From: Mesosutterella faecium
GTDB taxonomy: Bacteria > Pseudomonadota > Gammaproteobacteria > Burkholderiales > Burkholderiaceae_F
Direction: 5' to 3'
DNA length: 64,000 nt
NCBI RefSeq assembly: GCF_022809315.2
Contig: NZ_JAKZJU020000001.1
Coordinates: 2,145,001 to 2,209,000, forward strand
The position numbers were made by a program, and so were the translations under genes. Within the stretch, counting starts at the first letter, position 1. Each line of letters starts with the position of its first letter. Positions 27,449-64,000 of the stretch are shown in pieces. A model generated the notes under the pieces. That model searched no databases. It was given only the letters and a program-made list of their open reading frames with translations, and had not been told where the DNA came from.

Positions 27449-27451
27449 ACC

Positions 27452-28045: not shown

Positions 28046-28075
28046 TAAAGCGGCGAAAAAAAGAGGCTGAACACT

Positions 28076-28900
28076 ATGGGAAACGAATGGGCCATGATGC
28101 TGTTTACCTCGCTCGTGTGTCTCTCGGCGGGGCTCTCCGTAGTCACCGCGCTGGGCGAGTGGAGGGACTATCCCCTCGCGCCGCTCGTGCGCACGGGCGA
28201 GGCCGCGGCAGCGCTTCTCGCCCTGGGGTTCCTCTCCATTTTGTTCAGCCTCGGACGTCCCCAGCTCTTCATCGGGATGCTGGGCAACGCCGCCTCCTCA
28301 TTTTTTCCGGTCGCAGTCCTGATGGCGCTCGCCTTCGCGGCGCTCTTCGGGTTCTGCGCGGCGCACTACCGGGGGGCCGAGTTCTCGACCACCCGGGGGT
28401 TCGCGCTCGCCGCGGGGATTTGCTCTTCTCTCCTGGTCCTCGCGGCGGGCCGGACCATGGTGATGCCGTGGCGCGAGGCCTGGAACACGCCGATCATACC
28501 GGCGGCGTTCCTCGCCTGGGCCTTCGCCTGCTGCTGCTACGCGGCGCAGGCCCTTTCCGCAGTCACTGGGCGGAGCGCGCGCCTCGGGCGCGCGTCCCGC
28601 TTTGCATGGGCGGTGCCGGCCGTGCTTGTCGCGGCCTACATCGCCTTCCTTTTCACGAGCGAGGCGCTCCGCGAGGATGAGACCGCCTGGGAGCCCCTCA
28701 CAGGGAGCCTCGCCCCCATTTTCTGGCTGGGAGTCGCGGGAGCAGGCATCGTGCTGCCCGCCGTCCTCACCTGGCGCGGCAAAGGCTCCGCGCGCGCCTG
28801 CCTTGCCGCGATGATCCTCACCGTCGCGGGAGCGGCGGCCTTCCACATGGTCGTCTGGCAGCTCGGGATGCCCTCCTGGGACTTCTTCTCAGCCTCTTGA
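28076..28900 (+). CDS. DmsC-like membrane anchor / quinol oxidase subunit
   Basis: A 274-residue protein with about eight hydrophobic helices, starting MGNEWAMMLFTSLVCLSAGL. Composition, helix count and position behind a four-cluster ferredoxin match DmsC anchors, which oxidise menaquinol and hold the catalytic pair at the membrane. The conserved early region GEWRDYPLAPLVRTGE and SLGRPQLFIGMLGNAASS is typical of the family. No haem-binding His pairs of the NrfD/PsrC kind are apparent. Confidence 0.85.
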   Translation: MGNEWAMMLFTSLVCLSAGLSVVTALGEWRDYPLAPLVRTGEAAAALLALGFLSILFSLGRPQLFIGMLGNAASSFFPVAVLMALAFAALFGFCAAHYRGAEFSTTRGFALAAGICSSLLVLAAGRTMVMPWREAWNTPIIPAAFLAWAFACCCYAAQALSAVTGRSARLGRASRFAWAVPAVLVAAYIAFLFTSEALREDETAWEPLTGSLAPIFWLGVAGAGIVLPAVLTWRGKGSARACLAAMILTVAGAAAFHMVVWQLGMPSWDFFSAS

Positions 28901-28928
28901 AACACAATTCACCGGGAGTTCTGCACAG

Positions 28929-29576
28929 ATGGATCCGATTGCCGAAAACATGAAAAGCCGCGAGGACATGTACCGCCTCCTCGGGCGCTTCTACTACAAG
29001 GAGGCCGACGCGGACTTCATCAGGCAGCTGCGGGGCCTGAGCTTCAGCCAGACCGGCAGCCCCTCCTTTGACGAGGGCGCGAAGCTGCTCGCCTCGGCCG
29101 TGTCCGCCATCGACCCCGAGGGGAACCTGGACGGCCTCGCCGCGGACTACGCCCGGATCTTCCTCGGAGCGGGAGTGGTCGACGAGGTGTCGGCCTTCCC
29201 CTTCGAGTCCGTCTACACGAGCCCGAAGCACCTGGTCGCGCAGGACGCCTACGAGGAGGTCTACAAGATCTTTGAGAAGGCGGGGCTCGCGAAGGCCGAC
29301 CGCGACCTGCTGGAGGACCACGCCGCGCTGGAGCTCGCCTACATGGCGCGCCTTTGCGCGAAGGCGCGCGAAAGCGCCGAAAAAAAGGATGAGAAAGGCC
29401 TCGACGCGGCGGTCGAGGAGCAGGCCGAATTCCTGCAGAAGCACATCCTCAACTGGATGCCGGGCTTCTGCGCGGACATCCGCAGATGCCCCGGGGGAGA
29501 CTTCTACAAGGCGGCCTCCCTTCTGACCGAGGGGTTCCTGGGGCTTGAGAAGGAGGGACTTGAGGAGAGCGCCTGA
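28929..29576 (+). CDS. TorD/DmsD-family redox enzyme maturation chaperone
   Basis: A 215-residue all-helical protein. REDMYRLLGRFYYKEADADF at the start, the central ADYARIFLGAG, and PFESVYTSPKHLVAQDAYEE fit the TorD/DmsD family. Such chaperones bind the Tat signal of a molybdoenzyme and help cofactor insertion before export. Its place 28 bp behind the anchor gene shows it serves the 888-residue catalytic subunit. Confidence 0.88.
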   Translation: MDPIAENMKSREDMYRLLGRFYYKEADADFIRQLRGLSFSQTGSPSFDEGAKLLASAVSAIDPEGNLDGLAADYARIFLGAGVVDEVSAFPFESVYTSPKHLVAQDAYEEVYKIFEKAGLAKADRDLLEDHAALELAYMARLCAKARESAEKKDEKGLDAAVEEQAEFLQKHILNWMPGFCADIRRCPGGDFYKAASLLTEGFLGLEKEGLEESA

Positions 29577-29689
29577 AACACCCAAAAAAAACAGCGAACG
29601 CATGCTTCGGGAGCCGGCCCCTAAAAAACAAAACAACTTCGGGCGCCGGCCCCTCTCGCATCTTCACCTGAATACGGGAGCGAGGAAAA

Positions 29690-30337
29690 GTGGCAGACAA
29701 GGAGACGACAAAGACAAGGGCGGGCGGCCCGGCCCTGAGCCGCCGTGAGGCCCTCGCGGCGGCCGGCGGCATCGCCGGCATGCTCGCGCTCGGGGGCGCC
29801 GCGGCCTGCACCGAGGGCAGACCCCTGGTGCGGCCGCCGGGAGCGGCGCGCGAGAAGGACTTTCTCGCGCTTTGCATCAAATGCGACCGCTGCACGAGCG
29901 CCTGCCCGCTGCACGCGATCGGCCCGGCCTCCATCACGGACGGGTTCGTGCAGATGCGGACCCCCAGGATGGACTTTCACCACGGCTGGTGCAACTTCTG
30001 CATGAAGTGCACCGAGGCCTGCCCCACCGGGGCGCTCGAGCCCCTTGCGGAGCCCGGGCCCTTCGATCACCCGAAGGCGATCGGAACGGCCGAAATCACC
30101 AGGAACTGCATCGCGCTTGCCAGGGGCGGCTGCACCAAGTGCTACGAGGCCTGCAACGAGGGCGCGATCACCCTGAACGACGACAACGTGCCGGTGGTCG
30201 ACCCGGAGCTCTGCACGGGCTGCGGGCTCTGCGTGCTGGTGTGCCCCGCCAACGTCCTCGGCTCCTTCTCGGGCTCGAGCGAGCGCGGGGTCGAGATCCG
30301 CCCTCCGAAGGGAAAGAAGGGAGGGGCTGACAAATGA
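29690..30337 (+). CDS. NapG-like Tat-exported ferredoxin
   Basis: A 215-residue protein starting at GTG (GAGGAAAA upstream). The Tat motif SRREALAAAGG is followed by four Fe-S cysteine groups: CIKCDRCTSAC, CNFCMKCTEAC, the split CTKCYEAC with an upstream Cys, and CTGCGLCVLVC. This is the layout of NapG/MauM, which works with NapH as a quinol dehydrogenase passing electrons to periplasmic reductases. Its stop overlaps the start of the NapH-like fusion gene by 4 bp, indicating coupled translation. Confidence 0.9.
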   Translation: MADKETTKTRAGGPALSRREALAAAGGIAGMLALGGAAACTEGRPLVRPPGAAREKDFLALCIKCDRCTSACPLHAIGPASITDGFVQMRTPRMDFHHGWCNFCMKCTEACPTGALEPLAEPGPFDHPKAIGTAEITRNCIALARGGCTKCYEACNEGAITLNDDNVPVVDPELCTGCGLCVLVCPANVLGSFSGSSERGVEIRPPKGKKGGADK

Positions 30338-32538
30338 AAATCAGGAAAATCTCCCGGCTGCGCTGGTTCACGGCGCTCGCCTTCATCGTCCTCGCGGCCG
30401 CCGGCATGGCCTGGCACACCGGCTGGGGGACGCTCTCGTCCTTCGGCTGGAAGTCGATCGCCGCGGTCTGCCCGCTGGGCGGGCTCGAAACCCTGATCGC
30501 GGGGCACTCGCTCACGCTGCGGGCCGCGGTGGGCCTCGTGATCGTGCTCGCGCTGGTCGCGCTCTTCGGCCGCATCTTCTGCGGCTGGATGTGCCCGACC
30601 CCGCTCATCCGCAAAACCTTCGGCGCAAAGGACGACCGCCTCCCGCGCCGGGAAGGCGCGGGGCGCGTGATCCCCATCTATCCGGAAAAGGCGGCCGCGA
30701 AGGCTTCTTCCCGCATCCCGAAGAACACGCCCCTTTACATCCTCGTGGGCGCCCTGGGCTCGACCGCGGTCTTCGGCTTCCCGGTCTTCTGCCTCATCTG
30801 CCCGGTGGGGCTCACCTTCGGCGTGGTGATCGGCGCCTGGAGGCTCTTCCAGTTCAATATCGGCGACTGGTCGATCCTGCTTTTCGTCGCGCTGCTCGCC
30901 CTTGAGCTTTTCGCTCTGCGGCGCTGGTGCGCGTCCTTCTGCCCGCTGGGGGCGCTGATGTCGCTGCTCTCGCGCGCGAACCGCACGTTCAGGCCCGTGA
31001 TCGACGAGTCGAAATGCCTGCGGGCCAAGGGTCTCGACTGCAACGTCTGCCGCAGCGCCTGCCCCGAGGGCATCGACCTCACGAAGCCCGCGACGGCCGA
31101 GGAGCTCGCGCGCTGCACGAAGTGCCACGCCTGCTCGGACGCCTGCGCCGAAGGGGCGATCAGCTTCCCGCTCTTTTCGAGGGCCGGGGCCTGCGCCTCA
31201 GGCCTGAAGCCCGCGGCGGCGGCCGCAGCCCCCGCGGCCCCCGCCCCGGCCGCTCCGGCCCCGGAGGCTGCCGCCTCCCAGGCAAAGGAAGAGCCGCAGC
31301 GGCCCTTCGCGCTCAAGGAAGCGCTCCTTGAGAGCCGCCGCTGCATCATGTGCGGCGAGTGCGAGCGGGTCTGCCCGATGGGCAACCCGATCCCCGAGTG
31401 GATGGAGAAGCTGCGCGAGGGGCGTCCCCGCGAGGCCGCAAGGCTCATGCTGGGCCCGGGCTCGATGCCCGAGATCTGCTCGCGGGTCTGCCCGACCGAG
31501 CGGCTTTGCGAGCGCTCGTGCTCGCGCGCCGAGCACGGGGACGCGATCCAGATCCACTTGATCGAGCGCGCCGTCGCCGATGCGGCCTTGAAGCGCGGGG
31601 ATCTGCCGCGGCGCATCAGAAAGAACGGACGGCGCGCGGCCGTGGTCGGGGCGGGCCCCGCGGGCCTTGCCTGCGCGGACGTGCTCGCGCACGCGGGCTT
31701 TGCCGTCACGGTCTACGACAAGAACGCGCAGTGCGGCGGGCTGCTCTTCTACGGCATTCCCGCCTTCAAGCTGGAGCGCGGCCTCGTGCTCGCGAGGCGC
31801 CGCGCGCTCGAGGCCCTGGGGGTTGTCTTCAGGCTCGGAACCGCGGTTGGAAAGGACGTTGGCTGGAAGAAGCTGCTCGATGAAAACGACGCGGTCTTTG
31901 CGGCCTGCGGAGCCGAAAAGAGCGTCGCGCTTGACGTCCCGAACGCGGGGGCCGAGGGCGTGAGCCCCGCGATCGGGTTCCTGCGCGAGGCGGCGAGGGC
32001 CGCCGCGGAAGAGCCCGGAGCGAAGGCTCCCCTCTGCCGCGGCCTGCGCGTCCTCGTCCTCGGAGGCGGCGACACGGCGGTCGACTGCGCCGAGAGGGCG
32101 CTGGAACTCGGCGCCGCCTCGGTCACCCTCGCCTACCGCGGGGAAGAGACGAAGATGCGCGCCTCGCGCTCAGGCGTCCTGAGGCTCAAAGAGCGCGGCG
32201 TGAAGTTCCTCTTTGGCGCCTCGCCCGCCGCGGTTCTCGCGCCTGAGGGGCGCGCGGCCGGAGTATCCTTCGCCGACAGGCGCGAAGAGCCGGCCGACCT
32301 CGTCCTTGCCGCCTTCGGCTTCAGGGCGGCGCCCGTTCCGGAGCTTCAGGCGCTGGGCGCCCGCTTCGACGCGAGGGGCCGGCTCGTGACCGGCAGGGAC
32401 AGCGCCCGCACCGATATTTCCAGGCTCTACGCCGGAGGCGACGCCGTGCGCGGCGCCGCGCTCGTGGTCGAGGCCGTCTCGGACGGCCGCCGCGCGGGGC
32501 TTGAGATCGAGCGCGACCTCGGAAAGAGCCGCCCCTGA
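30334..32538 (+). CDS. NapH-GltD fusion: membrane ferredoxin joined to a cytoplasmic NAD(P)H:acceptor flavoprotein
   Basis: A 734-residue fusion. Residues 1-288 are NapH-like: four membrane helices, GRIFCGWMCPTPL, CLICPVGL and RRWCASFCPLGALMS, then two cytoplasmic ferredoxin motifs (CNVCRSACPEG, CTKCHACSDAC). An Ala/Pro-rich linker follows at about 289-325. Residues 326-734 are a GltD-like unit, with CIMCGECERVC and CSRVCPTERLCERSC clusters, an FAD motif AAVVGAGPAGLACAD near 439, and an NAD(P) motif VLVLGGGDTAVDCAER. The C-terminal unit lacks its usual GltB partner. Architecture suggests that NAD(P)H electrons pass through Fe-S clusters to the membrane part, and then to quinone or NapG. The direction could be reversed. 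Overlaps the NapG-like gene by 4 bp. Confidence 0.88.
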   Translation: MKIRKISRLRWFTALAFIVLAAAGMAWHTGWGTLSSFGWKSIAAVCPLGGLETLIAGHSLTLRAAVGLVIVLALVALFGRIFCGWMCPTPLIRKTFGAKDDRLPRREGAGRVIPIYPEKAAAKASSRIPKNTPLYILVGALGSTAVFGFPVFCLICPVGLTFGVVIGAWRLFQFNIGDWSILLFVALLALELFALRRWCASFCPLGALMSLLSRANRTFRPVIDESKCLRAKGLDCNVCRSACPEGIDLTKPATAEELARCTKCHACSDACAEGAISFPLFSRAGACASGLKPAAAAAAPAAPAPAAPAPEAAASQAKEEPQRPFALKEALLESRRCIMCGECERVCPMGNPIPEWMEKLREGRPREAARLMLGPGSMPEICSRVCPTERLCERSCSRAEHGDAIQIHLIERAVADAALKRGDLPRRIRKNGRRAAVVGAGPAGLACADVLAHAGFAVTVYDKNAQCGGLLFYGIPAFKLERGLVLARRRALEALGVVFRLGTAVGKDVGWKKLLDENDAVFAACGAEKSVALDVPNAGAEGVSPAIGFLREAARAAAEEPGAKAPLCRGLRVLVLGGGDTAVDCAERALELGAASVTLAYRGEETKMRASRSGVLRLKERGVKFLFGASPAAVLAPEGRAAGVSFADRREEPADLVLAAFGFRAAPVPELQALGARFDARGRLVTGRDSARTDISRLYAGGDAVRGAALVVEAVSDGRRAGLEIERDLGKSRP

Positions 32539-32585
32539 CGAGCCTTGAGGCATAGAAAAAAACAGGAGACAAAGAGGCTTCAAAG

Positions 32586-33704
32586 ATGCAGCAAATGGAT
32601 CAGTCAGAGCCAAAGAAGGAGGAGAAGCAGGAGCTGCCCCTTGAGATAGACCGGGGGAGGTGCGTGCGCTTCAGGCACGCCTCCGGCACCTGCGACGCGT
32701 GCGTGAAGGCCTGCGGCAGCGGCGCCCTCGTCCTCCGGGACGGGCTTTTCCGGGTCTTTCCGCAGAAGTGCACGCAGTGCGGCGCCTGCGCCGCAGCCTG
32801 CCCCCTGGGGGCGGTGCGGCTCCCCCCGCCGGTCCGCCCTCCGCGCGAGGAGATCCTGCGCGCCGCAGGGAAAGAGAAAAGCCTCGTGCTCTCCTGCTCC
32901 AGGGCCGCGGAAGGCGGCCGGGGCCTGCGGCTGAAGTGCCTGCTCGCGCTCGACCGCGAGACGCTCATCGAGGCCTTCGCCTCGGGCGCGGACGAGATCG
33001 AGTTCGTCGCCGGGAAATGCGCTTCCTGCCCGAGGAAAAGCCCCCGCACGCTTGAAGAGCGGATGAAGGAAGTGCAGGAGGCGGCCTGCGCCGCGGGCTT
33101 TGAGCCGCGCTTTGCGCTGCGGGTGAACCCGGGCGGGATCGAGCTCGGGCGGCGCTTCCTTTTCAGGCGCCTCGCGCAGCGCGTCGCCGAACCCGAAAAG
33201 GAAGCGGAGGTCACGCTGCAGCCCAACATCGCCGACTACTGCAACCCGGAGGACGACCGCTCGAAGCACGAGATCCCGCCGCGGCGCTCGCGGCTGATTG
33301 AAGCCCTCGCGAAGCTCAGGGAGCGCTCGGGCGGAGCGGGCGACGCAGCCGCAAAGACCGCGGGCAAAGTCTTTTTCAAGCCCCGGATCGACGCCGCGGA
33401 GTGCGCCGACTGCCTCATGTGCGCCGCGGCCTGCCCCACGGGCGCGATCCGGCTTGAAAAGGACGACAAGGGCACGAGGCTTTACACGAACGCCCGCGCC
33501 TGCGCGGGCTGCGGCCTGTGCCTGGACCTCTGCTACAAAAACGCTGTGAAGCTCGAGCCCGCCTCTCTTGAGGAGGCGGCCTCGGGCGAAGAGACGCTGG
33601 AGTGCGAGCACGCGGCCGGGGAGGACTCCGGCGACAGCTCGGGCGGCGCCGACGACTGGGGAAAGCTCGAGAGCATGTTCACGGTTCCGGTCTACAGGAC
33701 CTGA
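32586..33704 (+). CDS. Cytoplasmic polyferredoxin of unknown partner
   Basis: A 372-residue protein with one irregular and several regular Fe-S motifs: CDACVKACGSG, CTQCGACAAACPLG, CADCLMCAAACPTG and CAGCGLCLDLC. The central region (LVLSCSRAAEGGRGLRLKCL, VAGKCASCPRK) resembles the Cys-containing part of HdrA/MvhD-like adaptor proteins, but the match is loose. No signal peptide or membrane segment. It is 47 bp after the NapH-GltD fusion and ends before a strong terminator, so it closes the respiratory cluster and could relay electrons to the fusion protein. Confidence 0.8.
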   Translation: MQQMDQSEPKKEEKQELPLEIDRGRCVRFRHASGTCDACVKACGSGALVLRDGLFRVFPQKCTQCGACAAACPLGAVRLPPPVRPPREEILRAAGKEKSLVLSCSRAAEGGRGLRLKCLLALDRETLIEAFASGADEIEFVAGKCASCPRKSPRTLEERMKEVQEAACAAGFEPRFALRVNPGGIELGRRFLFRRLAQRVAEPEKEAEVTLQPNIADYCNPEDDRSKHEIPPRRSRLIEALAKLRERSGGAGDAAAKTAGKVFFKPRIDAAECADCLMCAAACPTGAIRLEKDDKGTRLYTNARACAGCGLCLDLCYKNAVKLEPASLEEAASGEETLECEHAAGEDSGDSSGGADDWGKLESMFTVPVYRT

Positions 33705-46475: not shown

Positions 46476-48473
46476 ATGAAACCCGAATCCATCGGCTGGT
46501 ACGGGCGGCTCGGCCGTGCGGCGGCGTTCCTCGCCCTCAGCCTCGCGGTCCTCTCCGCCCTGCGGATTGCGTTTTTCCTCGCCTACCGGCCGGGCGCGCT
46601 TGCGCTGCGCGAGCTCCTGCCCGCGCTGGGCGTCGGGCTGAGATTTGACCTCAAGTGGCTCGCGGTCGGGCTCGTGCCGGCCTGGATCTGCCTGCTCGCC
46701 TCGCGGGCCGCGCCCCGGCTCTGGCGCGCGGCCTGCTGGCTCGCCCTTGCGGCCTTCGCCGCGATGGTCGCGCTCGACCTCGTGAACTTCGGCTTCTACG
46801 GCTTTTACGGCACGCCGATCAGCGCGATCATCTTCGGGTTCGTGCAGGACGACACCGCGGCCATTGTGAAGACGATCTGGAAGGACTGGCCGGTGGGGCT
46901 CTACCTTCTCGTCCTCGCGCTGCTTGCCGCGCTGCCCTTCGCGGCCTCGGGGCTCTTTCCGGCTTCCCGGCGGCCCGAGCCGTCCCGCCTGTCCTTTGCC
47001 CTGCAGGCCCTCGGCGGGACGCTGCTTCTCGCGCTTGCGATCCGCGGCAGCCTCGGCGTCTTTCCGCTCAACCACCTCGCCTTCTCGGTTTCTCCCGTCG
47101 CCTTCGTGAACGAAACGGTCCCGAACGGCGCGGCGGCCCTCCACGAAGCCTATAAAAACCACAAGATCCTGGACATCCGCGGGGGTGAAGCCGAGACGCT
47201 GCGCTCGATGGGGTTCGGGAGCGAATCCGAGGCGCTCGAGGCGCTCCGGGCGGTGCGGCCGTCCGTCCCGCCCGCCGCTTCCGCGCCCGCCGTGCAGCCC
47301 CATGTGATCGTCGCGCTTATGGAGTCGATGGGGCGCGATCTCTTCGAAAGCCACCGCCCGGGGATAAACGACACGTTGGGCGAGCTCGCCGCGCAGCTGC
47401 CGGGCGCGGTCGTCTTCAAAAACGGCGTGAGCATCGGCATCGGCACCTTCAACTCGCTCGAGGGGCTGCTCTTTGACACGCCGGAGACCCCCATCACGCA
47501 GAGCCGCTTCGGGCGGAAGACCTTCCCGTTTTCACGCGTCCTCGCCTATAAGAAGGCGGGCTACCGGACGGTCTTTCTCACGGCCGGGCCCGAGAGCTGG
47601 CGGCAGATCGACGTGAACTTCCCGCTCCAGGGGTTCGACGAGATCATCGGGGCCTCGGAGCTCAAGCGCCGCTACCCGCAGGCCGAGTCCCTCACCTGGG
47701 GGATCGGCGACGCCTGGATGTTCAAGGCGGCCGAGGAGCGGATCGCCGAAGCGGACCAAAAGGGCGAAAAGCTCTTTTTGTTCATGCTCTCGGCCACCAA
47801 CCACGGCCCCCACCGCGTCCCTGACGGCGTTCATGTGAACCCGGTCGAAAGCGCGGCGCTGCCGTCCTTCATCACGGACACGAGAACTGAACTGAGAACC
47901 GCCGTCCTTCGGACTTACCAGTACGCCTGCAGCGAGCTCGGACGCTTCGTCGCCCGCGTGCGGGGCCGCACGGGAGGGCGCCCCGCCCTGATCGCCGCGA
48001 CCGGCGACCACAATGTGCGGCTCAGATACAACGCCGCAGGGGTGGAAAACCGGGCGCAGAACGGCGTTCCGCTCCTCTTCTGGCTGCCGCAGGAAATGCG
48101 CGGGCTCGAGCGCCGCGCGGACACCTCGCGATGGACGGGGCACCGCGACCTCTTCCCCACGCTCGACTCGCTCGCGCTCGGGATCCGCCCGGAGCTCAAG
48201 GACGGGCGCGACCTCTTCGGAGGAGACCGGTTCGACCTCGTGGAATCCTACGATGGCTTTGGCAAAAAGGGCTTCGCGATAGGCGCCTGGGGCGCCGCGG
48301 CCATGCAGGGCGGAGACCGCGTGGACTGCTACCGCTGGAAGGCGGGCAGGCTCGAGCGCGCGCTGCCCTGCCCGGCGGAGATTGAGAAGATGGGCCGCGC
48401 GGCCCGGGCCGAGGAGGCGCTCTCCGACCTTGCGGTGAGGCGCGGAATCCTGGGCGGCGCGGCCGGCCGCTGA
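46476..48473 (+). CDS. LTA-synthase-like alkaline-phosphatase-fold membrane transferase
   Basis: A 665-residue protein with five N-terminal membrane helices (about residues 12-200) and a large periplasmic sulfatase-type domain. HVIVALMESMGRDLFESHRP begins the metal-binding core. The SIGIGTFNSLEGLL region places the nucleophile Thr/Ser as in lipoteichoic-acid-synthase-like enzymes. LSATNHGPHRVP and ATGDHNVR supply further metal ligands. In Gram-negatives such proteins transfer phosphoglycerol to periplasmic glucans or lipopolysaccharide (OpgB-like), or phosphoethanolamine. Acceptor unknown. The ribosome site AGGAG is rather far (14 bp) from the ATG. Confidence 0.82.
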   Translation: MKPESIGWYGRLGRAAAFLALSLAVLSALRIAFFLAYRPGALALRELLPALGVGLRFDLKWLAVGLVPAWICLLASRAAPRLWRAACWLALAAFAAMVALDLVNFGFYGFYGTPISAIIFGFVQDDTAAIVKTIWKDWPVGLYLLVLALLAALPFAASGLFPASRRPEPSRLSFALQALGGTLLLALAIRGSLGVFPLNHLAFSVSPVAFVNETVPNGAAALHEAYKNHKILDIRGGEAETLRSMGFGSESEALEALRAVRPSVPPAASAPAVQPHVIVALMESMGRDLFESHRPGINDTLGELAAQLPGAVVFKNGVSIGIGTFNSLEGLLFDTPETPITQSRFGRKTFPFSRVLAYKKAGYRTVFLTAGPESWRQIDVNFPLQGFDEIIGASELKRRYPQAESLTWGIGDAWMFKAAEERIAEADQKGEKLFLFMLSATNHGPHRVPDGVHVNPVESAALPSFITDTRTELRTAVLRTYQYACSELGRFVARVRGRTGGRPALIAATGDHNVRLRYNAAGVENRAQNGVPLLFWLPQEMRGLERRADTSRWTGHRDLFPTLDSLALGIRPELKDGRDLFGGDRFDLVESYDGFGKKGFAIGAWGAAAMQGGDRVDCYRWKAGRLERALPCPAEIEKMGRAARAEEALSDLAVRRGILGGAAGR

Positions 48474-50132: not shown

Positions 50133-50918
50133 TCAGGCGACCGGCACCACGCAGGCGTACTTCGGGCGCTCGGGAAGGTCGAGCGGGATGATCCTCACGC
50201 GCACGCCGAAGCTCTCGGAGAGGTTCTGCTCGGTGAGCACCCCGGGGGCGGGCCCGAAAAGCGGGGGGCGCCCGGGCAGCATGAGAAGCGACTGCGAGCT
50301 GATCTCGAGCGCGTGCGAGGGGAAGTGCGTGTTGATGATGGAGCCGATCCCGCGCTCTTCGGAGAGCCGCTGCAGCACGCGAAGCACCCGCAGCTGGTTC
50401 TTGAAGTCGAGGTTGCTCTCGGGCTCGTCGAGCACCAGCACCTCGGGGCGCGCGGCGAGCGCCCGGGCGACGAGCGCGAGCTGGTACTCGCCGCCCGAAA
50501 TCCGGCTGCAGAGCTTGTCGGCGAGGTGCGCGATCCCCACCGCCTCGAGCGCTTCGCGCGCGATCTCGCGGTCGCGGGGGCCCGGGCGGGAAAAGTCCCC
50601 GATCCTCGCGCTGCGGCCGAGGAGCGCGAGCTCCCCCACCGTGTACACGAAGGGGAGCGACCGGGCCTGCGGCACGTAGCCGATCCTCGACCAGAAGCGC
50701 CGCGGGGAGAGGCTCGAGGCCTCGACCCCGTCGATGTAGGTGCCGCCCGAGCTCCAGCGCTGCAGCCCCAGCATGCAGCGCAGCAGCGTGGTCTTGCCCG
50801 CGCCGTTGCGCCCGAGCACGCTCATGATGCCGCGGCAGTCGAACGTGAAGCTCACGCCCTCGAGCACCCTTTTTCCCCCGGGATAGGAGAAAGCGCCGTT
50901 CTTCACCTCAAGAATCAT
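50133..50918 (-). CDS. ABC transporter ATPase (FecE/BtuD-like), sixth gene of the nitrogenase-like operon
   Basis: A 261-residue ABC ATPase from the ATG at 50918. Walker A is GRNGAGKTT (VLGRNGAGKTTLLRCMLGLQ), the signature ISGGEYQLALVARALA and Walker B VLVLDEPESNLD. FecE/BtuD-type subunits energise import of iron-siderophore, haem or corrinoid. The ATG is 23 bp after the permease stop, with GGAGCCGG-like bases upstream. Its operon mates are a FecCD permease, a binding protein and three nitrogenase-like proteins, which links the transporter to that enzyme. The cargo is unknown. Confidence 0.92.
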   Translation of the reverse strand: MILEVKNGAFSYPGGKRVLEGVSFTFDCRGIMSVLGRNGAGKTTLLRCMLGLQRWSSGGTYIDGVEASSLSPRRFWSRIGYVPQARSLPFVYTVGELALLGRSARIGDFSRPGPRDREIAREALEAVGIAHLADKLCSRISGGEYQLALVARALAARPEVLVLDEPESNLDFKNQLRVLRVLQRLSEERGIGSIINTHFPSHALEISSQSLLMLPGRPPLFGPAPGVLTEQNLSESFGVRVRIIPLDLPERPKYACVVPVA

Positions 50919-50941
50919 TTTTTCCGGCTCCTTTGCCCGCC

Positions 50942-51946
50942 TCAGCCGAGCGAGCTGCCCGTGCGGCGCAGCAGCGCGATGAAGACCGGCGCGCCGATGA
51001 GCGCGGTGAGAATGGACACCGGGAACTCGATTTCGGCCGCCGACCTCGCGGCCGTGTCCGCGGCGAGCACGAAAAGCGCGCCGAAAAGCAGCGACGCGGG
51101 CACCACCCGCTCGTTGCTGTTGCCAAGCAGGAGCCTCGCGAAGTGCGGGATGAGAAGCCCCACCCAGCCGATCAGCCCGCACATGCTCACGACGCTCGCG
51201 GTGATCATGGTGCCGCTCACGATGACGAGCGCCCGCAGCCTCCCCGCGGGGATCCCCAGCGAGCGGACCTCGTCGTCGGGAAGCGACAGCGCGTTGAGCC
51301 TCCAGCGCAGCAGCCAGATGAGCGCCGAGCCCGCGGCGATGAAGGGCAGCCCCAGCATGAGGGTCTGCATGTTCGCCCCGGTGAAGGTCCCCATGATCCA
51401 GTAGGTGATCGAGGGCAGCACGTCCTGGGGGTCGGCGAGGTACTTCACGAGCGAGATGAGCGCGGAAAACATCGCCCCCACGATGAGGCCCGAGAGGATC
51501 AGCATCAGGATCGAGCTTCGGCCGCGCACGCGGCTCACGGCCCAGACGAGGGCTACGGCCGCAAGCCCCGAGAAGAACGAGATCACCTGGATCGCGACGC
51601 CCCCGAGCCCGAGCAGGATCCCCAGCACCGCCCCGAAGGCCGAGCCGCTCGCGACCCCCAGCGTGTCGGGAGTGGCAAGCGGGTTGGAAAAGAGCGCCTG
51701 GAAGGCCGCCCCCGCCACCGCGAGCCCCGCGCCCGCCGCCACCGCGAGCAGCACCCGCGGCAGCCGCACGTTGAGCACCACCGACTTCATGACGCCGGTG
51801 ACTCCGGGGTCCCCGGTGAGCGGGCAGGCGAGCGTTCTGGCCACCTCGGGGATCGACAGCCCGTAGCGCCCGCAGCCGAGCGACGCGAGAAAAAGAAGCG
51901 CGAGAAGAAAGCCCGCCGCCCCCATGATCCAGTTCTGCCTGCTCAC
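50942..51946 (-). CDS. FecCD/BtuC-type ABC permease, fifth gene of the nitrogenase-like operon
   Basis: A 334-residue inner-membrane permease with about ten helices. RLPRVLLAVAAGAGLAVAGAAF, LFSNPLATPDTLGVASGSAFGA and GLIGWVGLLIPHFARLLLG are core FecCD signatures. It would act as a homodimer with the ATPase encoded next. It starts 13 bp after the stop of the binding protein. The family carries bulky chelates: siderophores, haem, cobalamin, sometimes molybdate. Confidence 0.93.
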   Translation of the reverse strand: MSRQNWIMGAAGFLLALLFLASLGCGRYGLSIPEVARTLACPLTGDPGVTGVMKSVVLNVRLPRVLLAVAAGAGLAVAGAAFQALFSNPLATPDTLGVASGSAFGAVLGILLGLGGVAIQVISFFSGLAAVALVWAVSRVRGRSSILMLILSGLIVGAMFSALISLVKYLADPQDVLPSITYWIMGTFTGANMQTLMLGLPFIAAGSALIWLLRWRLNALSLPDDEVRSLGIPAGRLRALVIVSGTMITASVVSMCGLIGWVGLLIPHFARLLLGNSNERVVPASLLFGALFVLAADTAARSAAEIEFPVSILTALIGAPVFIALLRRTGSSLG

Positions 51947-51959
51947 GGCCCGGCCTCCG

Positions 51960-53069
51960 TCAGCGCCCGCGCGCGGCCGGCGAGGTGATGCGGCCCTCGG
52001 CCACGTTGCTCTTCGGCCTGAAGATCGACTCGACCTGCCGGTCGGTGAGGCGGATGTTGAAGAGCTCCCTGTAGTACTTCTTCACCTCGGCGTTGAGGTT
52101 CACGTCCCGGAAGCGCTCGGGGTAGACGGTCTTTGCGAGCCAGAGCAGCGTCATCGGCGTGTCGGCCGAGGGCGTGTAGCCGCGGTAGAGCCCGAGCGGC
52201 ATCTTGTAGACGCGCCGCTCCTGCACGGCCTTCACCTTCGACCAGTCGTGGAATTTGCTCCCGTAGAGGTCCGCGGGGACGGTGTTCGTGAAGTTCGTGA
52301 TGAGGACCGTGTCCGGGTTCCAGCGGTAGACCTGCTCCATGTTGATCTGCGCGTTGGCGTTTTCGGCCTTCACGCCCGAGGCGACGTTCTGAGCCCCGAC
52401 CGCGTCCGCCCAGTACTGGCCGAAGAAGCGCCGTCCGCTCGTCACGATCTTGCGGTCGTCATACTGGAAAAGGAAAAGCAGCCTGCGGCGCTGCGAGGCC
52501 GGGATCGAGGCGACGCGCCTGGAGACCATCGAGGCCACCGAGCGGCTGATCCTCGCGGCCTTCTCCTTCTTCGCCTGCCCGGGAAAGACTTCGTCCAGGA
52601 GCTTGATCCAGGCCTCGTAGGTGTCGAGCACGTTGTAGTTCCAGCGGTTCACGCTCACCGCAAGGGCCGGGATCCCTGCGTTGTCCAGCATCTTGAGCGT
52701 CTTCGCGTCGCCCGCGTTCACGAAGACCACGTCGGGCCTGAGCTTCATGAGCGACTCGACGTTCACCGTGCTGCCGTTCATGAAATTGGTCGGGACTTTC
52801 TTGATTTTCGGGTAGATCTCGCCCAAAAGGCCGTTTTCCGCGGCCAACATCGAGACTTTGCTCATGCCGGCGATCTTGTCGGCGCCCCCGAGGAACACGG
52901 CGGTGACCGAGGCGAAGGGGAAGATGTTGGTGATCACGACGCGGTTCACGTGGTCCGGCACCTCGACCTTCCTGTCCAGATGGTCGACCACGACGCGCGC
53001 CGAGGCGGAGAAGGCGGCAAGAACCGCCGCGGCCGCGGCCAGCGTTTTCACAAGGAGCTGACGTTTCAT
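51960..53069 (-). CDS. Periplasmic substrate-binding protein of FecCD-type ABC importer, fourth gene of the nitrogenase-like operon
   Basis: A 369-residue helical-backbone binding protein (FepB/BtuF class) with a Sec signal (QLLVKTLAAAAAVLAAFSAS). The start at 53069 keeps a 9-base spacing from AAAAGG; an ATG three codons earlier would touch that site. The family segment NRVVITNIFPFASVTAVFLG, LMKLRPDVVFVNAG and TVLITNFTN are in the usual order. Two extra long segments (CFFLFQYDDRKIVTSG region and a C-terminal tail after LNAEVKKYYRELF) are unremarkable for class III proteins. It lies 21 bp behind a nitrogenase-like gene, so the transported compound is probably the enzyme's substrate or cofactor source. 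Confidence 0.9.
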   Translation of the reverse strand: MKRQLLVKTLAAAAAVLAAFSASARVVVDHLDRKVEVPDHVNRVVITNIFPFASVTAVFLGGADKIAGMSKVSMLAAENGLLGEIYPKIKKVPTNFMNGSTVNVESLMKLRPDVVFVNAGDAKTLKMLDNAGIPALAVSVNRWNYNVLDTYEAWIKLLDEVFPGQAKKEKAARISRSVASMVSRRVASIPASQRRRLLFLFQYDDRKIVTSGRRFFGQYWADAVGAQNVASGVKAENANAQINMEQVYRWNPDTVLITNFTNTVPADLYGSKFHDWSKVKAVQERRVYKMPLGLYRGYTPSADTPMTLLWLAKTVYPERFRDVNLNAEVKKYYRELFNIRLTDRQVESIFRPKSNVAEGRITSPAARGR

Positions 53070-53090
53070 TTCATTCATCCTTTTCTTTAG

Positions 53091-54299
53091 TCATGAAGCC
53101 TGCCAGGGCAGAAGCGGCTCCCGGCTCTCCGCCCCGTCAAACCACCGGTTGAAGCGGCCTCCCGCGAGGCGCGGCATCGAGTCGAGCCAGATGCGGCCCG
53201 AAAAAGCCTGGTGCGGCAGGTCGACGAAGCGCGGCGACCCGCCCCTTAAGACCATCCGGTAGACGGGGTCGGCCACGACAAGGGCCGCCTGCGGGAGCAG
53301 CCTCAGGTAGTCGTCCTCCGTGCAGCCCGCGGCGTCCCCCGGTCCGAGCAGCGCCGGGTCGCAGGTGAGCGACGTGAGCACGCGCACGTTCTTCAGCCCG
53401 TGGTCGCGCACGAGGCTCGCGCGGACCGCGGCGCTCACGACGGGCTCGCCCACGACGTAAGCGGGCTTCGAGTCCTCTTCGATGTTGCCGCGCACCCCGC
53501 AGGCGAGGTTCGCACAGCCGCCGCCCGAGGCCGCCTCACGCAGCTTCCGGCAGACGAGGTCGGTCATGAAGCGGCCGACGGGCGCGCCCACGACAAAGGG
53601 CGTCCCGAAGCGCCTCAGGAGGAGCTTCGCGGCGGGCAGCCCGCAGCCCGAGACGACGAGATTCGCGTCGGCCGCGCCCGAGCGCCCGATCTCCTCGAGG
53701 CTCGAGCCCATCGCCCAGACCGAGAGCACTTCAAAGCCCTCGCGCTCGAGCTCCCCGCGCAGGTCGGCCGAGGTGTGCCGGTACTCGAAGTCCAGCGGCG
53801 TCACCCCCAGGACGTTCACCCGGGGCTTTGCGCCGGGCCCGCTCCCCGGCCCTTTAAGGCAGAAGCGGTCCGCGAGGTGCCAGAAGGCCTTGCCCGCGCC
53901 CTCCACGTAGTCCTTCGTCCCGTTCGTGTCGATGCCGAAGGAGGGGATGCCGGTGCGCTGCTCGATCTCGCGGGCGATGCCCTCGTAGTCGCAGCCGCAC
54001 ATCATCGGGATCGGGGTGCCCGCGAGTGCGATGAACTTCGGGCGGTAGTCGCGCGCGGCCGAGGCGACGTCCCCGATCAGCCGCTGCTCGTTGCCGAGCA
54101 CCGCGTCGACCTCGGTGAGCCCCGAGATGTAGACCATCGAGGGCGTGTCGTACCAGCGCGGCTCGTCGTGCGTGCTGTAGGTGGAGTTGCAGCCCGAGGC
54201 GTCGTGCATGACGAGCAGCCCCCCGAGCTCGTAGAGCGCCGAGCACATGGAGGAGTTGTCGGCCGCGTAGACCGGGAGAAAAGCGTTGGCCTGTTTCAT
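53091..54299 (-). CDS. Nitrogenase component-1-like subunit B (NifD/NifK/NifE/BchN/CfbD superfamily)
   Basis: A 402-residue cytoplasmic protein from ATG 54299 (AAGGAACGGTTGCTT upstream). It carries three Cys in positions expected of a P-cluster or NB-cluster site: C19 (SMCSALYELGG), C37 (HDASGCNSTY) and C101/C103 (MMCGCDYEG), with spacing 18 and 64, close to NifD/NifK. The later SSLEEIGRSGAADANLVVSG and GAPVGRFMTDL match component-1 domains. Length is shorter than NifD (about 490) and near BchN/CfbD-like proteins. No NifD-like cofactor His/Cys pair is obvious, though GRG-type loops exist. It pairs with the overlapping upstream subunit. Reaction unknown. Confidence 0.85.
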   Translation of the reverse strand: MKQANAFLPVYAADNSSMCSALYELGGLLVMHDASGCNSTYSTHDEPRWYDTPSMVYISGLTEVDAVLGNEQRLIGDVASAARDYRPKFIALAGTPIPMMCGCDYEGIAREIEQRTGIPSFGIDTNGTKDYVEGAGKAFWHLADRFCLKGPGSGPGAKPRVNVLGVTPLDFEYRHTSADLRGELEREGFEVLSVWAMGSSLEEIGRSGAADANLVVSGCGLPAAKLLLRRFGTPFVVGAPVGRFMTDLVCRKLREAASGGGCANLACGVRGNIEEDSKPAYVVGEPVVSAAVRASLVRDHGLKNVRVLTSLTCDPALLGPGDAAGCTEDDYLRLLPQAALVVADPVYRMVLRGGSPRFVDLPHQAFSGRIWLDSMPRLAGGRFNRWFDGAESREPLLPWQAS

Positions 54300-55627
54300 A
54301 AGCAACCGTTCCTTGTGCAGCCGAGCGCCTTCACCTGGATCAGGTCGCGCGCGCTGCGCGGCGTCCTGAAGGCCTCCGCCATGAGCTCCAGCATCCGCGC
54401 CATGCCCGAAATCCCGTCCATCCCGCCGCCTTCGATCATGTTGACGAAACGGTCGGTGCCGGTGAAGAAGGCGGCCTTCTGACCGATCGCGAGCACGGGG
54501 CGCTCCGGGGCCGCGCGGCGCGGCGCAGCAAAGACCATCCCCGGGTGCACGGTCGGGTGCACCCGAAGCTCCGGGCGCCTCGCCTGAAGCCACTCGAAGT
54601 CGCCCTTCTCCGAGGCCTGGAAGGCGTCGCAGTAGAGGTCCGTCACGTTGAAGCCCGACTCGAGCAGGAACCGGGCGAGCGAGAGCGGCCGGGTGGCGGC
54701 CGTGTAGTCGAGTGCGACCGGGGCGCCGCCGACCGCCGCGCGGGTAAGCCGCAGCGACTTTTCGAGCCGCTCCTCGGCCGGGGCCGGGTCGAAGGTGGCG
54801 CCAAGCTCCCGCGCGAAGCCGGCGAGCATCCGGCGGTTTTCCTCGAGCCCGAAGCCGCAGGAGAACATGGAGGTCTCCTGTCCCAGGCGCTGCCTGGCCC
54901 AGTCGAGCATCGGGCCCGCGACCGGGTTCACGGCGATCGCGCGCTTTGAGCGCGCGAGCTCCTGGTACTCGCCGTAGGTGCGCGCGGCCGTGATCGTCCG
55001 GAAGGGACGGCCCGAAGCGCGCACGATCCGCGCGAGGTCGGAGTCGGCCGTGGGCGGCACCACGTCGCCGTAAACCGTGACGCCCTCGTCCAGGTCTTCG
55101 CGGCGCCGCAGCAGCGTGTAGATCTGGCGCCGGTTGCAGGCGTCGGGCGAAATCCTTTTGCGCAGGATCGGCGTCATGTAGCCGTCGGTGAAGTCGATTC
55201 CGGGGTGCAGGGCCCGCAGCCGCTCGAAGGTGAACGTGAGGTCGGTGCCGATGAATTCGTGCACGCAGCTCGTGTAGACGATCACGGCCCGCGGCCTGTA
55301 GGCAATTTTCTTCAGGATGTCGCCCACGCCCTCGATCAGGACCTCCTCGGTGTTGCCTTCGAGCAGGTTGCTGTCCTCGATCGTGATCGTGGAGAAGCGG
55401 TCGAGCGCCCGGACCTCGGCCGCGCTCAGGACCACGCCCCTCAGGCAGGCCTCGGCGCAGACGAAGACGATGTGGGTCTCGGGCACGAGAAGCCCCAGGT
55501 GCATGATGGTCCAGGGGCCCCGGGCCGGGGCGCTGTACTCGAGCGCCGGGGAAAACGGCGCGGGAAAGGCGGCCTCGCCGATCGAAAGGACGGGGTCGGG
55601 GCGCGCGGCCCGCGTGAGCAGTGGCAT
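54296..55627 (-). CDS. Nitrogenase component-1-like subunit A
   Basis: A 443-residue protein of the same superfamily (ATG 55627 with GGGAGGGCAGC upstream). C57 and C61 (FVCAEACLRG) and C121 (YTSCVHEFIGTDL) match the second and third P-cluster-type Cys; the first position is not clearly present. An unusual C-terminus ends KALGCTRNGCL, giving a Cys pair at 438 and 442. Its last codon overlaps the ATG of the partner subunit by 4 bp, and it follows the NifH-like gene by 18 bp. Together these three would resemble DPOR/COR/CfbCD-like reductases more than nitrogenase itself. Confidence 0.84.
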   Translation of the reverse strand: MPLLTRAARPDPVLSIGEAAFPAPFSPALEYSAPARGPWTIMHLGLLVPETHIVFVCAEACLRGVVLSAAEVRALDRFSTITIEDSNLLEGNTEEVLIEGVGDILKKIAYRPRAVIVYTSCVHEFIGTDLTFTFERLRALHPGIDFTDGYMTPILRKRISPDACNRRQIYTLLRRREDLDEGVTVYGDVVPPTADSDLARIVRASGRPFRTITAARTYGEYQELARSKRAIAVNPVAGPMLDWARQRLGQETSMFSCGFGLEENRRMLAGFARELGATFDPAPAEERLEKSLRLTRAAVGGAPVALDYTAATRPLSLARFLLESGFNVTDLYCDAFQASEKGDFEWLQARRPELRVHPTVHPGMVFAAPRRAAPERPVLAIGQKAAFFTGTDRFVNMIEGGGMDGISGMARMLELMAEAFRTPRSARDLIQVKALGCTRNGCL

Positions 55628-55645
55628 GGCTGAGCTGCCCTCCCT

Positions 55646-56449
55646 TTAAATGAAGTCGCCCGCGCGGATCGGGACGAAGAGCTCGTCGCGCGCCCTGGAG
55701 GAGGCGGCAAGCACCGCTTCCGACAACCGCTCGAACTCCTTTGCCATCGGCGAGTCCGGCAGGCAGTCGACCACGGTCCCCTGCCGCCGCTCGGCCTCCT
55801 GCACGTCGCCCGAGCGCGGCAGCCGGTAGATCACGCGCGAGCCCACGGTGCGCGCGAGCTCGTCCACCTTCCGGTCCTCGTCCTCGACGAGGCGGCGGTT
55901 GAGGATGATGCCCGAAAGCCGCGCGTAGCCGCGGTTTTTGAAGTTCTCGACGGCCTGCGCGATGCAGCCCGCGGCGTAGATCGCCATGTTCTCGCCCGAG
56001 GTGACGATGAAGACGTTGTCCGCGTAGCCCTTCCGGATCGGCATCGCAAAGCCCCCGCAGACCACATCGCCCAGCACGTCGTAGAGCACAACTTCCGGCC
56101 TGATCCGCTCGAAGGCGTGCGCGGCGGTGAGCGCTTCAAAGGCGGCCACGATGCCGCGGCCCGCGCACCCCGTTCCGGGCGAGGGGCCGCCCGCCTCGAC
56201 GCACCAGACGCCGTTGGGGGCGCGGTGCACGATGTCCTCGAAGGCGACGCGCCCGTTCGGCCGGCGGCGAAGCGCGTCGAGCACGCTTTCAATCCTGCGC
56301 CCGCCGTTGTGATAGATGGTGCTGTCCGCCTTCGGGTCGCAGCCGATCTGCAGGACCGAGAGGCCCTTTTTCGCAAACGCCGCCGAGAGGTTGCTCACTG
56401 TGGTGGACTTGCCGATTCCGCCCTTGCCGTAGAGTGCGATTCTGTACAT
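55646..56449 (-). CDS. NifH/BchL/CfbC-like ATP-dependent iron protein
   Basis: A 267-residue iron protein from ATG 56449. P-loop [10 protein letters not shown] (residues 8-17), DPKADST and the two [4Fe-4S]-ligating Cys C95 (TGCAGRGI) and C131 ([18 protein letters not shown]) match NifH Cys 97 and 132 in spacing. The dimer would bridge one cluster and pass single electrons to the component-1 pair upon ATP hydrolysis. Length is a little short of NifH (290). It is the first gene of the six-gene operon with component-1 subunits and an ABC importer downstream. No nifB, nifE/N, nifV or nif regulator is nearby, so nitrogen fixation is unlikely. Confidence 0.93.
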
Positions 56450-56773: not shown

Positions 56774-58114
56774 GAGGGTGTAAAGAATTTTGTGGGCGCT
56801 CTGAGATAATGCTTCTTGGAGAGCCTAAATATGAGACGCACACCTGATCCTTTTGACAAACTCGCGGAACAGATTCTGGAAGACCTGAAGAAGTCCGGCC
56901 GGGAAATCAAATCCTCCGGGGAAGCGGATGATTTCATGGCCCACCTGCTGGGGCGGCTGCTGACGAAAATGCTGGAGGGCGAAATGACCCATCATCTGGG
57001 TTATGAAAAGGGCCAGGCACGTCCGGGTGACAATGAGCGCAATGGCCACAGCTCCAAAACCCTGAAGTCTCCCAAGCTTGGAACCATCCATGTGGACGTA
57101 CCCCGGGACCGCAAAGGCCGCTTCACACCCCGGATTGTTCCGAAGCACAAAAGGACGCTGGATGGGTTCGACGAAAAAATTTTGGCCCTTTATGCCCGAG
57201 GCCTGACGACACGGGAAATCCAGGGCTATCTTTACGACGAATATGGGATGGAAACCAGCGCCGAGTTCATCAGCGATGTGACCGACGCCATACTTCCCGA
57301 GCTTCAGAAATGGCAGGACCGTCCTCTCAGCCCTGTCTATCCGGTGATTTTCTTTGACGCCATCAGGATCAAGACAAGGGGCGAAAACGGGGTGGTCACT
57401 CCCCGGGCAGTCCATATCGCCCTGGGCGTGGATACCGATGGAAAGAAGGATGTCCTGGGTCTTTGGATGGCCGAAAATGAAAGTGCCAAATACTGGCTTA
57501 AAGTCTTTAACGAGCTGAAGAATCGAGGCGTCAACGACATTCTTATCGCCGTCACGGACGGGCTTAAAGGGATGCAGGAGGCTTTGGAGACGGCTTTTCC
57601 GAAAACGATGCTGCAGACCTGCATCGTCCATTTGATCCGCAACAGCCTCAAAATGGTCAACTACAAGGATTACAAGGCGGTTGTTGCTGCGCTGAAGCCT
57701 GTTTACCGTGCTGTCAACGCCGAGGAAGCACGTCAGGCGCTGAACGATTTTGCCCAGTCGGAACTTGGGAAAAAATATTCCTACATCGAAAAAATCTGGC
57801 TGGACGCATGGGATCGCGTGATTCCTTTCTTTGAGTTCTCACCCGCCGTCAGGCGGTTGATCTACACCACCAACGCCATTGAAAGCTTGAACCGGGACCT
57901 GCGAAAGGTTGTCAAGACAAGAGCTTCTTTCCCAAGCGAGACCGCTGCGCTGAAGCTGCTTTACCTGGCGATCCGAAAGGTGGAGAGGAGATGGGTGAGG
58001 CCATCACCTTATTGGAAAACTGCCATGCGAGAATTAACCATTGAGTTCGGAGACAGGATCGCACCTTTCTTCGATTAACCTAAAGGGGGCGCCCACAAGA
58101 ATTTCCATACCCTC
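56774..58114 (+). mobile_element. Complete IS256-family insertion sequence, 1341 bp
   Basis: The ends are 26-bp imperfect inverted repeats: the left starts GAGGGTGTAAAGAATTTTGT, and the right, read inward, starts GAGGGTATGGAAATTCTTGT; both continue GGGCGC, with 20 of 26 matches. The flanks carry an identical 8-bp duplication, TTATTCAA, at 56766-56773 and 58115-58122, as expected for this family. One intact transposase gene fills the element. The clean duplication points to a fairly recent insertion. It lies 325 bp upstream of the NifH-like gene start and transcribes away from it. Confidence 0.95.
56831..58078 (+). CDS. IS256-family mutator-type transposase
   Basis: A 415-residue DDE transposase (Transposase_mut). 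MAHLLGRLLTKMLEGEMTHHLGY near the N-terminus, VIFFDAIRIK and VTDGLKGM with the catalytic Asp residues, and RLIYTTNAIESLNRDLRKVV with the family hallmark TTNAIE confirm it. The ATG at 56831 has GGAG at 56818-56821, and a TTG five codons earlier is rejected for lack of a site. Full-length and uninterrupted, so probably active. Confidence 0.97.
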   Translation: MRRTPDPFDKLAEQILEDLKKSGREIKSSGEADDFMAHLLGRLLTKMLEGEMTHHLGYEKGQARPGDNERNGHSSKTLKSPKLGTIHVDVPRDRKGRFTPRIVPKHKRTLDGFDEKILALYARGLTTREIQGYLYDEYGMETSAEFISDVTDAILPELQKWQDRPLSPVYPVIFFDAIRIKTRGENGVVTPRAVHIALGVDTDGKKDVLGLWMAENESAKYWLKVFNELKNRGVNDILIAVTDGLKGMQEALETAFPKTMLQTCIVHLIRNSLKMVNYKDYKAVVAALKPVYRAVNAEEARQALNDFAQSELGKKYSYIEKIWLDAWDRVIPFFEFSPAVRRLIYTTNAIESLNRDLRKVVKTRASFPSETAALKLLYLAIRKVERRWVRPSPYWKTAMRELTIEFGDRIAPFFD

Positions 58115-62921: not shown

Positions 62922-64000
62922 TCAGAAGGAAAGCCTCACGCCGGCGTTCACGCTCCAGGCGCTCTCAAGGGAGTTTCCGAAGCGGTACTCGGCGTCCGCA
63001 AACGCGAAGGCGCTCCGCCCGAGCGCCACCTGGAAGCCCGCGCCCGCGTCGTACCAGCTGCCCTTGTTTTCGATCGAGGCGTCGTAGCCCGAGGCGCGGG
63101 TGGTCGAATCGAAGGCGCGGATCTTCTGCTTCCCGCTCCACTCGCGAATCCAGTCGGCCTTGAAGTAGAACGAGCTCGCCTTCTCGGCGCCGAAGCTGCG
63201 CCCGGCCCGGAAGCCCGCGCGCGAAAGCACCGAATTGAAGCTGTCCTGCGCGATCCGCGAGCCCTGCGTCGTGCTGTAGTTCCCGTCGGTCACGTGCAGG
63301 TACTGCAGCTGCAGCTCAGGCTCCACGAACCACCCCTCGGCGCCGAGCGGGAGCTTGTGGCCCGCCTCGGCCGAAAAGCCGAGGACGTGGTTGTCAAAGT
63401 CGCCCTTCACGCGGCCGCCCGAGCCGTTCACGATGTTAAAGCTGTTTGCGAGCCGCCCCCACTGCGCGACAAGGTCGACGTAGGCGCCGCTTACTCCCAG
63501 CCACGTGCCGTAGGCCTTCACGCCGAAGCGCCGGGTGTCCCCGTCTCCCGAGAGCCCCTTGAAATCGTCGTCGGCATGCCGCCAGTCGAGGGCCAGGCCG
63601 GCAAGCGCCCGCCCAGCGCTAAAGGAGAAGGCGCGGTCAAAGCCCGCCTGGTAGGTCGCGGCCGAACTCTTGAAGTCGCCCCGGCCCGAGGAGCTCTCGA
63701 GATTGTCATAGCGGATGCGAAGCCACAGGCCGTCGTCTCCCTTTGCGTGCCGCGCTTCGCCCAGCCTCTTTACGAGCCGGTCCATGTCGACCGCGTTCCA
63801 GTACAGGGAGCGCGCGGCCCCGAGCACCGCGCGGCCCGCGTCGGAGAGCTCCACCTTCGGCTTTTCAGGCGTCTGGCCGCCGTTGTCGGGCTGAACCGGC
63901 GCTACGGGCTGGTCAGGCGTGGCAGGTGTGTCGGGGGTATCAGGGGTGTCAGGAGTCTCTGGAGTATCGGGGGTGACAGGCTTGGTCTCAGTCGCCTCCG
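62922..64000 (-). CDS. Classical autotransporter, C-terminal part (beta-barrel; N-terminus beyond the right edge)
   Basis: The reverse strand is open from the stop at 62922 to the edge, giving 359 residues. A linker of Pro/Thr/Asp repeats (about PDTPETPDTPDTPATPDQP) leads into an autotransporter barrel of about 300 residues, ending in SVNAGVRLSF with terminal Phe, as needed for BAM recognition. LWLRIRYDNLESSSG, GAYVDLVAQWGRL, EPELQLQYLHV and SWYDAGAGFQVALG are typical strands. The passenger, and hence its activity, lies outside the window. It differs in type from the trimeric adhesin at 5149-10038. Confidence 0.92.
   Translation of the reverse strand, partial: EATETKPVTPDTPETPDTPDTPDTPATPDQPVAPVQPDNGGQTPEKPKVELSDAGRAVLGAARSLYWNAVDMDRLVKRLGEARHAKGDDGLWLRIRYDNLESSSGRGDFKSSAATYQAGFDRAFSFSAGRALAGLALDWRHADDDFKGLSGDGDTRRFGVKAYGTWLGVSGAYVDLVAQWGRLANSFNIVNGSGGRVKGDFDNHVLGFSAEAGHKLPLGAEGWFVEPELQLQYLHVTDGNYSTTQGSRIAQDSFNSVLSRAGFRAGRSFGAEKASSFYFKADWIREWSGKQKIRAFDSTTRASGYDASIENKGSWYDAGAGFQVALGRSAFAFADAEYRFGNSLESAWSVNAGVRLSF

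Follow-up and report, generated by a model that had tools for sequence, protein, structure and literature searches.

The six-gene operon described here, found in Mesosutterella faecium within a DNA stretch of 64,000 nucleotides that was analysed as a whole (hereafter the window), joins a nitrogenase-like trio to an ABC importer and, judging from its sequence and genomic company, rather probably stands in for HydG, with the importer bringing in a precursor and the enzyme processing it. HydG, a radical SAM enzyme, makes the Fe(CO)2CN synthon, and the CO and CN ligands of [FeFe]-hydrogenases are regarded as coming from it. The link of such operons to hydrogenase assembly lacking HydG, as read from genome sequences, appears well supported in Clostridia and unsettled in the window's own relatives. 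As a member of its family the operon is ordinary, and it is its context that is unusual.

The genome containing the window comprises 2.6 Mb on 3 contigs. As the original prediction had it, six minus-strand genes form one operon from 56449 to 50133, with gaps of 18, −4, 12, 13 and 23 bp, the 12-bp gap between the genes of subunit N and the binding protein becoming 21 bp when counted from the second ATG of the latter. The trio consists of a NifH-like iron protein of 267 aa (H, 55646–56449) with a P-loop and Cys95/Cys131, and of two component-1-like subunits, E (443 aa, 54296–55627) and N (402 aa, 53091–54299). They are followed by a Peripla_BP_2 binding protein (51960–53078, alternative start 53069), the N-terminus of which resembles a signal peptide by eye, a permease of the FecCD family with a GTG start (50942–51946) and the ABC ATPase of the importer (50133–50918). 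Pfam matched H to Fer4_NifH (5e-84) and found Oxidored_nitro twice (2e-11 and 2e-29); Peripla_BP_2, FecCD and ABC_tran were all matched as well, and the claim of a full FecCD-type importer is thus upheld. Upstream, a divergent transposase-like gene on the plus strand (56816–58078), of the IS256/mutator type by eye, marks the operon boundary and lies outside the system; a stretch of lower GC content at 56–60 kb contains this gene. A scan of five sources at the gathering threshold gave no riboswitch in the window and one lysine riboswitch, in locus L018.

Several other genes of the window were observed in passing. At 5149–10038, a gene of 1629 aa containing numerous 120-bp tandem repeats looks like a surface adhesin, the end of a second repeat-bearing gene lies at 62922–63998, and a gene run at 24782–33704 resembles, by start sequences only, a molybdopterin oxidoreductase respiratory operon. 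A 665-aa gene (46476–48473) is situated two genes from the operon and has 47% homologues in loci L157 (5274–7268) and L159 (6152–8146), which lie between the importer and HydE in two genomes of the genus.

Membership of the trio in the known nitrogenase-like families was judged by the curated equivalog cut-offs of NCBIfam. For nitrogenase, H reached 294 of the 394 bits of nifH, N 20.9 of 427 (nifK) and 41.6 of 505 (nifE), and E 18.4 of 505 (nifE). For CfbCD, H reached 301 of 402 bits (CfbC) and the catalytic subunit 19.2 of 268; the corresponding values were 191 of 345 (BchL) and 50.9 of 490 (BchB) for DPOR and 174 of 331 (BchX) and 20.4 of 529 (BchZ) for COR. All these scores are well under the cut-offs, in agreement with the expectation that the trio is not a nitrogenase, nor is it placed with DPOR, COR or CfbCD, and N2 fixation was set aside on these scores. 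Among the NCBIfam matches of the window's genes there was no model for Mar. H itself belongs to the nitrogenase-like iron proteins by its Fer4_NifH family and both cysteines. None of the NCBIfam rows shown for the importer genes was over its cut-off, those for the ATPase being the best 25 of 183 rows. The nearest solved sequences to the binding protein are 4ovk (144.8 bits), for which the output names no ligand, and then HI_1472 (3psa, 105 bits), which we take to be MolA, a molybdate/tungstate binder; with these two as nearest solved relatives, a metal oxyanion is a possible ligand.

Relatives of gene N were found by a pattern search at 344 places in 84,980 genomes, and the best 80 of these 344 loci were fetched; by title, they come mostly from Clostridia MAGs of animal guts, together with some Clostridium isolates. 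The best relative is Mesosutterella porci, which has the same six genes at 88–97% identity, and the gene order is also kept at further loci, so that it is not specific to one strain and, recurring elsewhere, is not due to chance. A tree built by a quick method from 127 N-type proteins places the window within a clade of 97 rows with a support of 100; the remaining rows are 23 of a second set (N2), five from a sister lineage and two on long branches. The sister lineage (L194–L196, L198 and L200) shares the order of the six genes, and its genomes either contain HydG (G113, G167, G181) or are devoid of HydF (G175, G407), and the reaction may for this reason be broader than hydrogenase assembly.

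Conserved cysteines were examined in the family's own rows. Both cluster cysteines of H, Cys95 and Cys131, presumably the [4Fe-4S] ligands, are each kept in all 96 H rows when the first and second sets are pooled and the sister lineage is left out, as had been anticipated for the iron protein. In alignments with rows filtered by length, C61 and C121 of E and C37 of N are invariant across all rows. C57 of E is kept in 94 of 95 rows of the first set; together with the C-terminal C437/C442 it is mostly kept only within E's own clade. C19 of N is kept in 77 of 97 rows. By this comparison within the family, the original statement that most cysteines at putative P-cluster positions are retained is only partly right. 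C37 of N sits in the motif SGCNST-Y-x-T-HDEPRW of the hydrogenase-linked clade, and the equivalent motif of the sister lineage is GCTGNYTG[FY]DEPRW.

In Clostridia the trio often adjoins HydE, HydF and TM1266, which are [FeFe]-hydrogenase assembly genes. Near N in the best 80 loci, several of which are on short contigs, HydE was present at 38 loci, HydF at 31, TM1266 at 56, HypF at 14, HypE at 14 and HypD at 13; each neighbour name derives from one representative over its curated cut-off (HydE 551.9, HydF 571.3, TM1266 117.0, HypF 772.7, HypD 396.1 and HypE 423.6 bits). HydE, HydF or TM1266 occurs within the stretch in 75 of the 97 clade loci, and the window is one of the other 22.

The binding protein or permease adjoins the trio in 64 of the 97 clade loci (L165 was counted by hand, since its operon continues into L166), and the importer and trio do belong together, as was proposed. 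At 27 loci there are Hyp genes, a second NifEN set or the two together; no locus combines these with the importer, and 6 loci have neither. The tree requires at least six switches between the importer and the Hyp or second NifEN genes. This alternation was seen within stretches having flanks of about 9 kb or less, and an importer located elsewhere in a genome of the Hyp type would be missed. By pattern, a HypC-like gene is present in 12 of the 27 loci with Hyp or second NifEN genes; in the window, the HypC pattern and the gene list gave no Hyp genes. No such importer was found in 14 control stretches (4.7–20 kb) around HydF of HydG-positive Clostridia, where only distant ATPase matches were obtained.

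Absence of HydG accompanies the trio in Clostridia. Fifty genomes with N, represented among the best 80 loci, were examined, and HydG over the cut-off was found in 3 of them and missing from 47. A wider sample of 393 Clostridia genomes was drawn evenly around G016 with a requested completeness floor of 90%; HydF was over the cut-off in 260 of them and HydG in 242, and an N homologue (E up to 1e-30) was present in 26. Cross-tabulation by hand showed N in 18 of the 25 genomes with HydF and without HydG versus 5 of the 235 with both (Fisher p about 6e-18, uncorrected for kinship, so that relatedness inflates the significance); HydG without HydF was seen in 7 genomes and N without HydF in 3. Among the five HydG-positive genomes with N, only the centre G016, which was picked for having N, carries a member of this clade, and for the clade's own N the comparison becomes 18 of 25 versus 1 of 235, or 0 of 234 without the centre. 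The clade membership of these 18 was established by the tree for 14, by the motif for three and by the position beside HydF for one (G318, assigned by position alone, with N gene 38 bp from HydF); two of those assigned by motif, G374 and G436, were also inside the clade in a tree containing some misread rows. Seven Clostridia genomes have HydF and neither HydG nor N, which speaks against the replacement, and in the six of them examined around HydF no importer was found. Many of the genomes are MAGs.

The same gap is known from cultivated acetogens. A 2022 survey covered eight acetogenic Clostridium species, five of which have HydE and HydF along with [FeFe]-hydrogenases and no gene meeting HydG's motifs; its authors had no straightforward explanation, offering as scenarios atypical HydG-like genes or a weak activation for which HydE and HydF suffice (PMC9431212). 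We examined two of these five species, C. ljungdahlii and C. carboxidivorans: both carry the trio, situated beside HypF, HypC, HypD and HypE, and neither has a HydG over the cut-off; in C. drakei, the trio and HydG are both present. The survey also gives a [NiFe]-hydrogenase for each acetogen species, which the Hyp genes may serve, and reports HypC, HypD and HypE each in duplicate for C. carboxidivorans (PMC9431212).

The window's own genome has HydE (279.8 bits, cut-off 254.6) and HydF (508.9 bits, cut-off 325.6). Of its two HydA-like genes, one scores over the cut-off of 406 bits (483.8) and the other under it (355.8); the former keeps, by eye, TSCC, MPCTAKK and CPGGC, which we assume to be the H-cluster binding motifs. 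HydG was not found in this genome, the sole match being HydE itself (48 bits, cut-off 312). HydE and HydF lie 64 kb from the operon and do not adjoin it. In a set of 81 genomes including this one and its relatives, HydF was present in 29 and HydG in 18; N was found in 2 of the 11 genomes with HydF and without HydG (the window's own and G445) and in 3 of the 18 with HydG. Thus, 2 of 5 genomes with N are devoid of HydG, and the association seen in Clostridia breaks down among these relatives, Fisher's test of N against HydG absence giving p = 1.

Of the nine HydF-positive relatives with neither HydG nor N, eight were examined around HydF. In three of these, the Mesosutterella genomes G442–G444, an importer of the same family lies beside HydE–HydF, with one gene between in two of the three. 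In G443, the genes of HydA, cytochrome b, HydF and HydE are followed directly by this importer. Locus L158 (1052–10877, minus strand), from a Mesosutterella without HydG, reads HydA, a small gene with a TAT-like start, a cytochrome b-like gene, HydF and HydE, then the binding protein, permease and ATPase of the importer, a PLP-enzyme-like gene and a HypC-like gene. For an empty site in G442/G444, 23 window genes including the flanks were compared with ten 20-kb stretches, and none gave a match at the length and identity required. The HydF stretches of five relatives having neither HydG nor N (genera g4 and g10) contained no importer; these loci, L160–L164 (G448, G454, G459, G463 and G467), may represent a further HydG-less route or missing data.

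Under the preferred explanation, the importer would take up a small precursor, H would pass electrons to E–N in an ATP-driven manner, and E–N would reduce or rearrange the precursor to an Fe–CO–CN species, which HydE and HydF would finish and insert. The cluster of E–N would be ligated by the invariant C61 and C121 of E and C37 of N, presumably as a single bridging cluster. Guessing from the alternation alone, the cargo might be an iron–cyanide/carbonyl unit or its equivalent: because Hyp genes or a second trio replace the importer, the imported compound could be equivalent to their product, hence an Fe–CN or Fe–CO–CN unit, and HypCDEF make Fe(CN)2CO. A more far-reaching version, possible in our opinion though doubtful, is that gut anaerobes import an organometallic Fe–CO–CN precursor from their neighbours and convert it by the nitrogenase-like enzyme to the substrate of HydE, acetogens producing that precursor themselves by Hyp proteins and a second nitrogenase-like enzyme. 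The product of HydG goes to HydE, and synthetic compounds can bypass HydG in vitro (PMC12752695); where the CO in [NiFe] maturation comes from was still debated in 2014 (PMC4161419).

The alternative closest to this explanation, and overlapping with it, is that the importer alone bypasses HydG by delivering a finished Fe–CO–CN unit, the trio being a losable accessory. Genomes G442–G444 speak for it, with their importer beside HydE–HydF in the absence of both HydG and N, a HypC-like gene nearby and permeases that group with that of the window (support 91), but the pattern is confined to one genus and the sole HypC-like protein scanned was under its cut-off (41.2 against 48), and we consider this reading rather unlikely. 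It is unlikely that the operon encodes an import-and-reduce enzyme for an organic compound or metal chelate, such as a tetrapyrrole or siderophore, with proximity to HydE and HydF as a by-product of anaerobic gene clustering. Such an enzyme would accord with the shared gene order of the sister lineage, whose genomes contain HydG or are devoid of HydF, with the 64 kb separating the operon from HydE/HydF here and with the best scores of H being those for CfbC (301 bits) and nifH (294), under the cut-off in either case; however, it predicts neither the absence of HydG (47 of 50; 18 of 25 versus 5 of 235) nor the assembly genes in 75 of 97 loci.

Import of molybdate, tungstate or another metal for a metal cofactor on E–N, the enzyme performing some reduction, is quite unlikely. 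HI_1472 is indeed the second-best solved relative of the binding protein (105 bits), but the best one, 4ovk (144.8 bits), has no named ligand, and Hyp and NifEN2 genes, with which the importer alternates, are to our knowledge not suppliers of metals of this kind. A partner making such a cofactor may nevertheless exist among the neighbouring genes, of which some were scanned for families. Coupling of metal transport to cofactor assembly was suggested by Dos Santos et al. (2012, PMC3464626). Least probable of all, and very unlikely, is a HydG too divergent for detection, to which the trio would be irrelevant. The survey lists candidate HydG-like radical SAM proteins in 7 of 8 acetogens (PMC9431212), and 14 of the 50 trio genomes gave matches of about 170–217 bits under the HydG cut-off, three of these 14 beside a true HydG. 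These matches span only about positions 15–396 of 470, and an E. coli control likewise matches under the cut-off; moreover, the window's genome has no such match, and the HMM did find HydG over the cut-off in 242 of 393 Clostridia. E. coli presumably has ThiH and is devoid of HydG.

If the replacement of HydG is true, it would fill a gap for the several industrially relevant acetogens reported to be without a gene meeting HydG's motifs (PMC9431212), give a function to an orphan branch of nitrogenases and bear on how anaerobes acquire CO and CN. If the import reading is true as well, the H-cluster would be reached in nature by two routes, and an organometallic compound would be traded as a nutrient.

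By Dos Santos et al. (2012, PMC3464626), NifHEN-like genes were already noted beside ABC transporters and, in Firmicutes such as Coprococcus catus, beside hydrogenase maturation proteins, with the suggestion of metal transport coupled to assembly of a metal cofactor or metallocluster. The kind of trio, both neighbourhoods and a suggested role in metallocluster assembly are thus shared with our description, and the idea that a coupled import-and-reduce unit would be undescribed is not supported; the passages considered differ in containing no link to missing HydG and no exclusive alternation of importer and Hyp genes. Among the matches listed, in a search with subscription journals mostly outside it, no title or abstract opening linked nitrogenase-like genes to missing HydG, which suggests that the association with [FeFe]-hydrogenase assembly lacking HydG is new.

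Among other known systems, CfbCD, DPOR (BchLNB), COR (BchXYZ) and Mar share the two-component nitrogenase-like architecture, but the trio scores far under the family cut-offs of the first three. The FecCD-type importers BtuCD and HI_1470–1472 have the same families of permease, ATPase and binding protein and differ in that the NCBIfam rows shown were all under the cut-off. HypCDEF resemble the importer in position, as Hyp genes and/or the second NifEN replace it in 27 of 97 loci, but are known for [NiFe] enzymes and are not present in the window. HydG, finally, would act at the same step as the trio, before HydE and HydF, and belongs to a different protein family.
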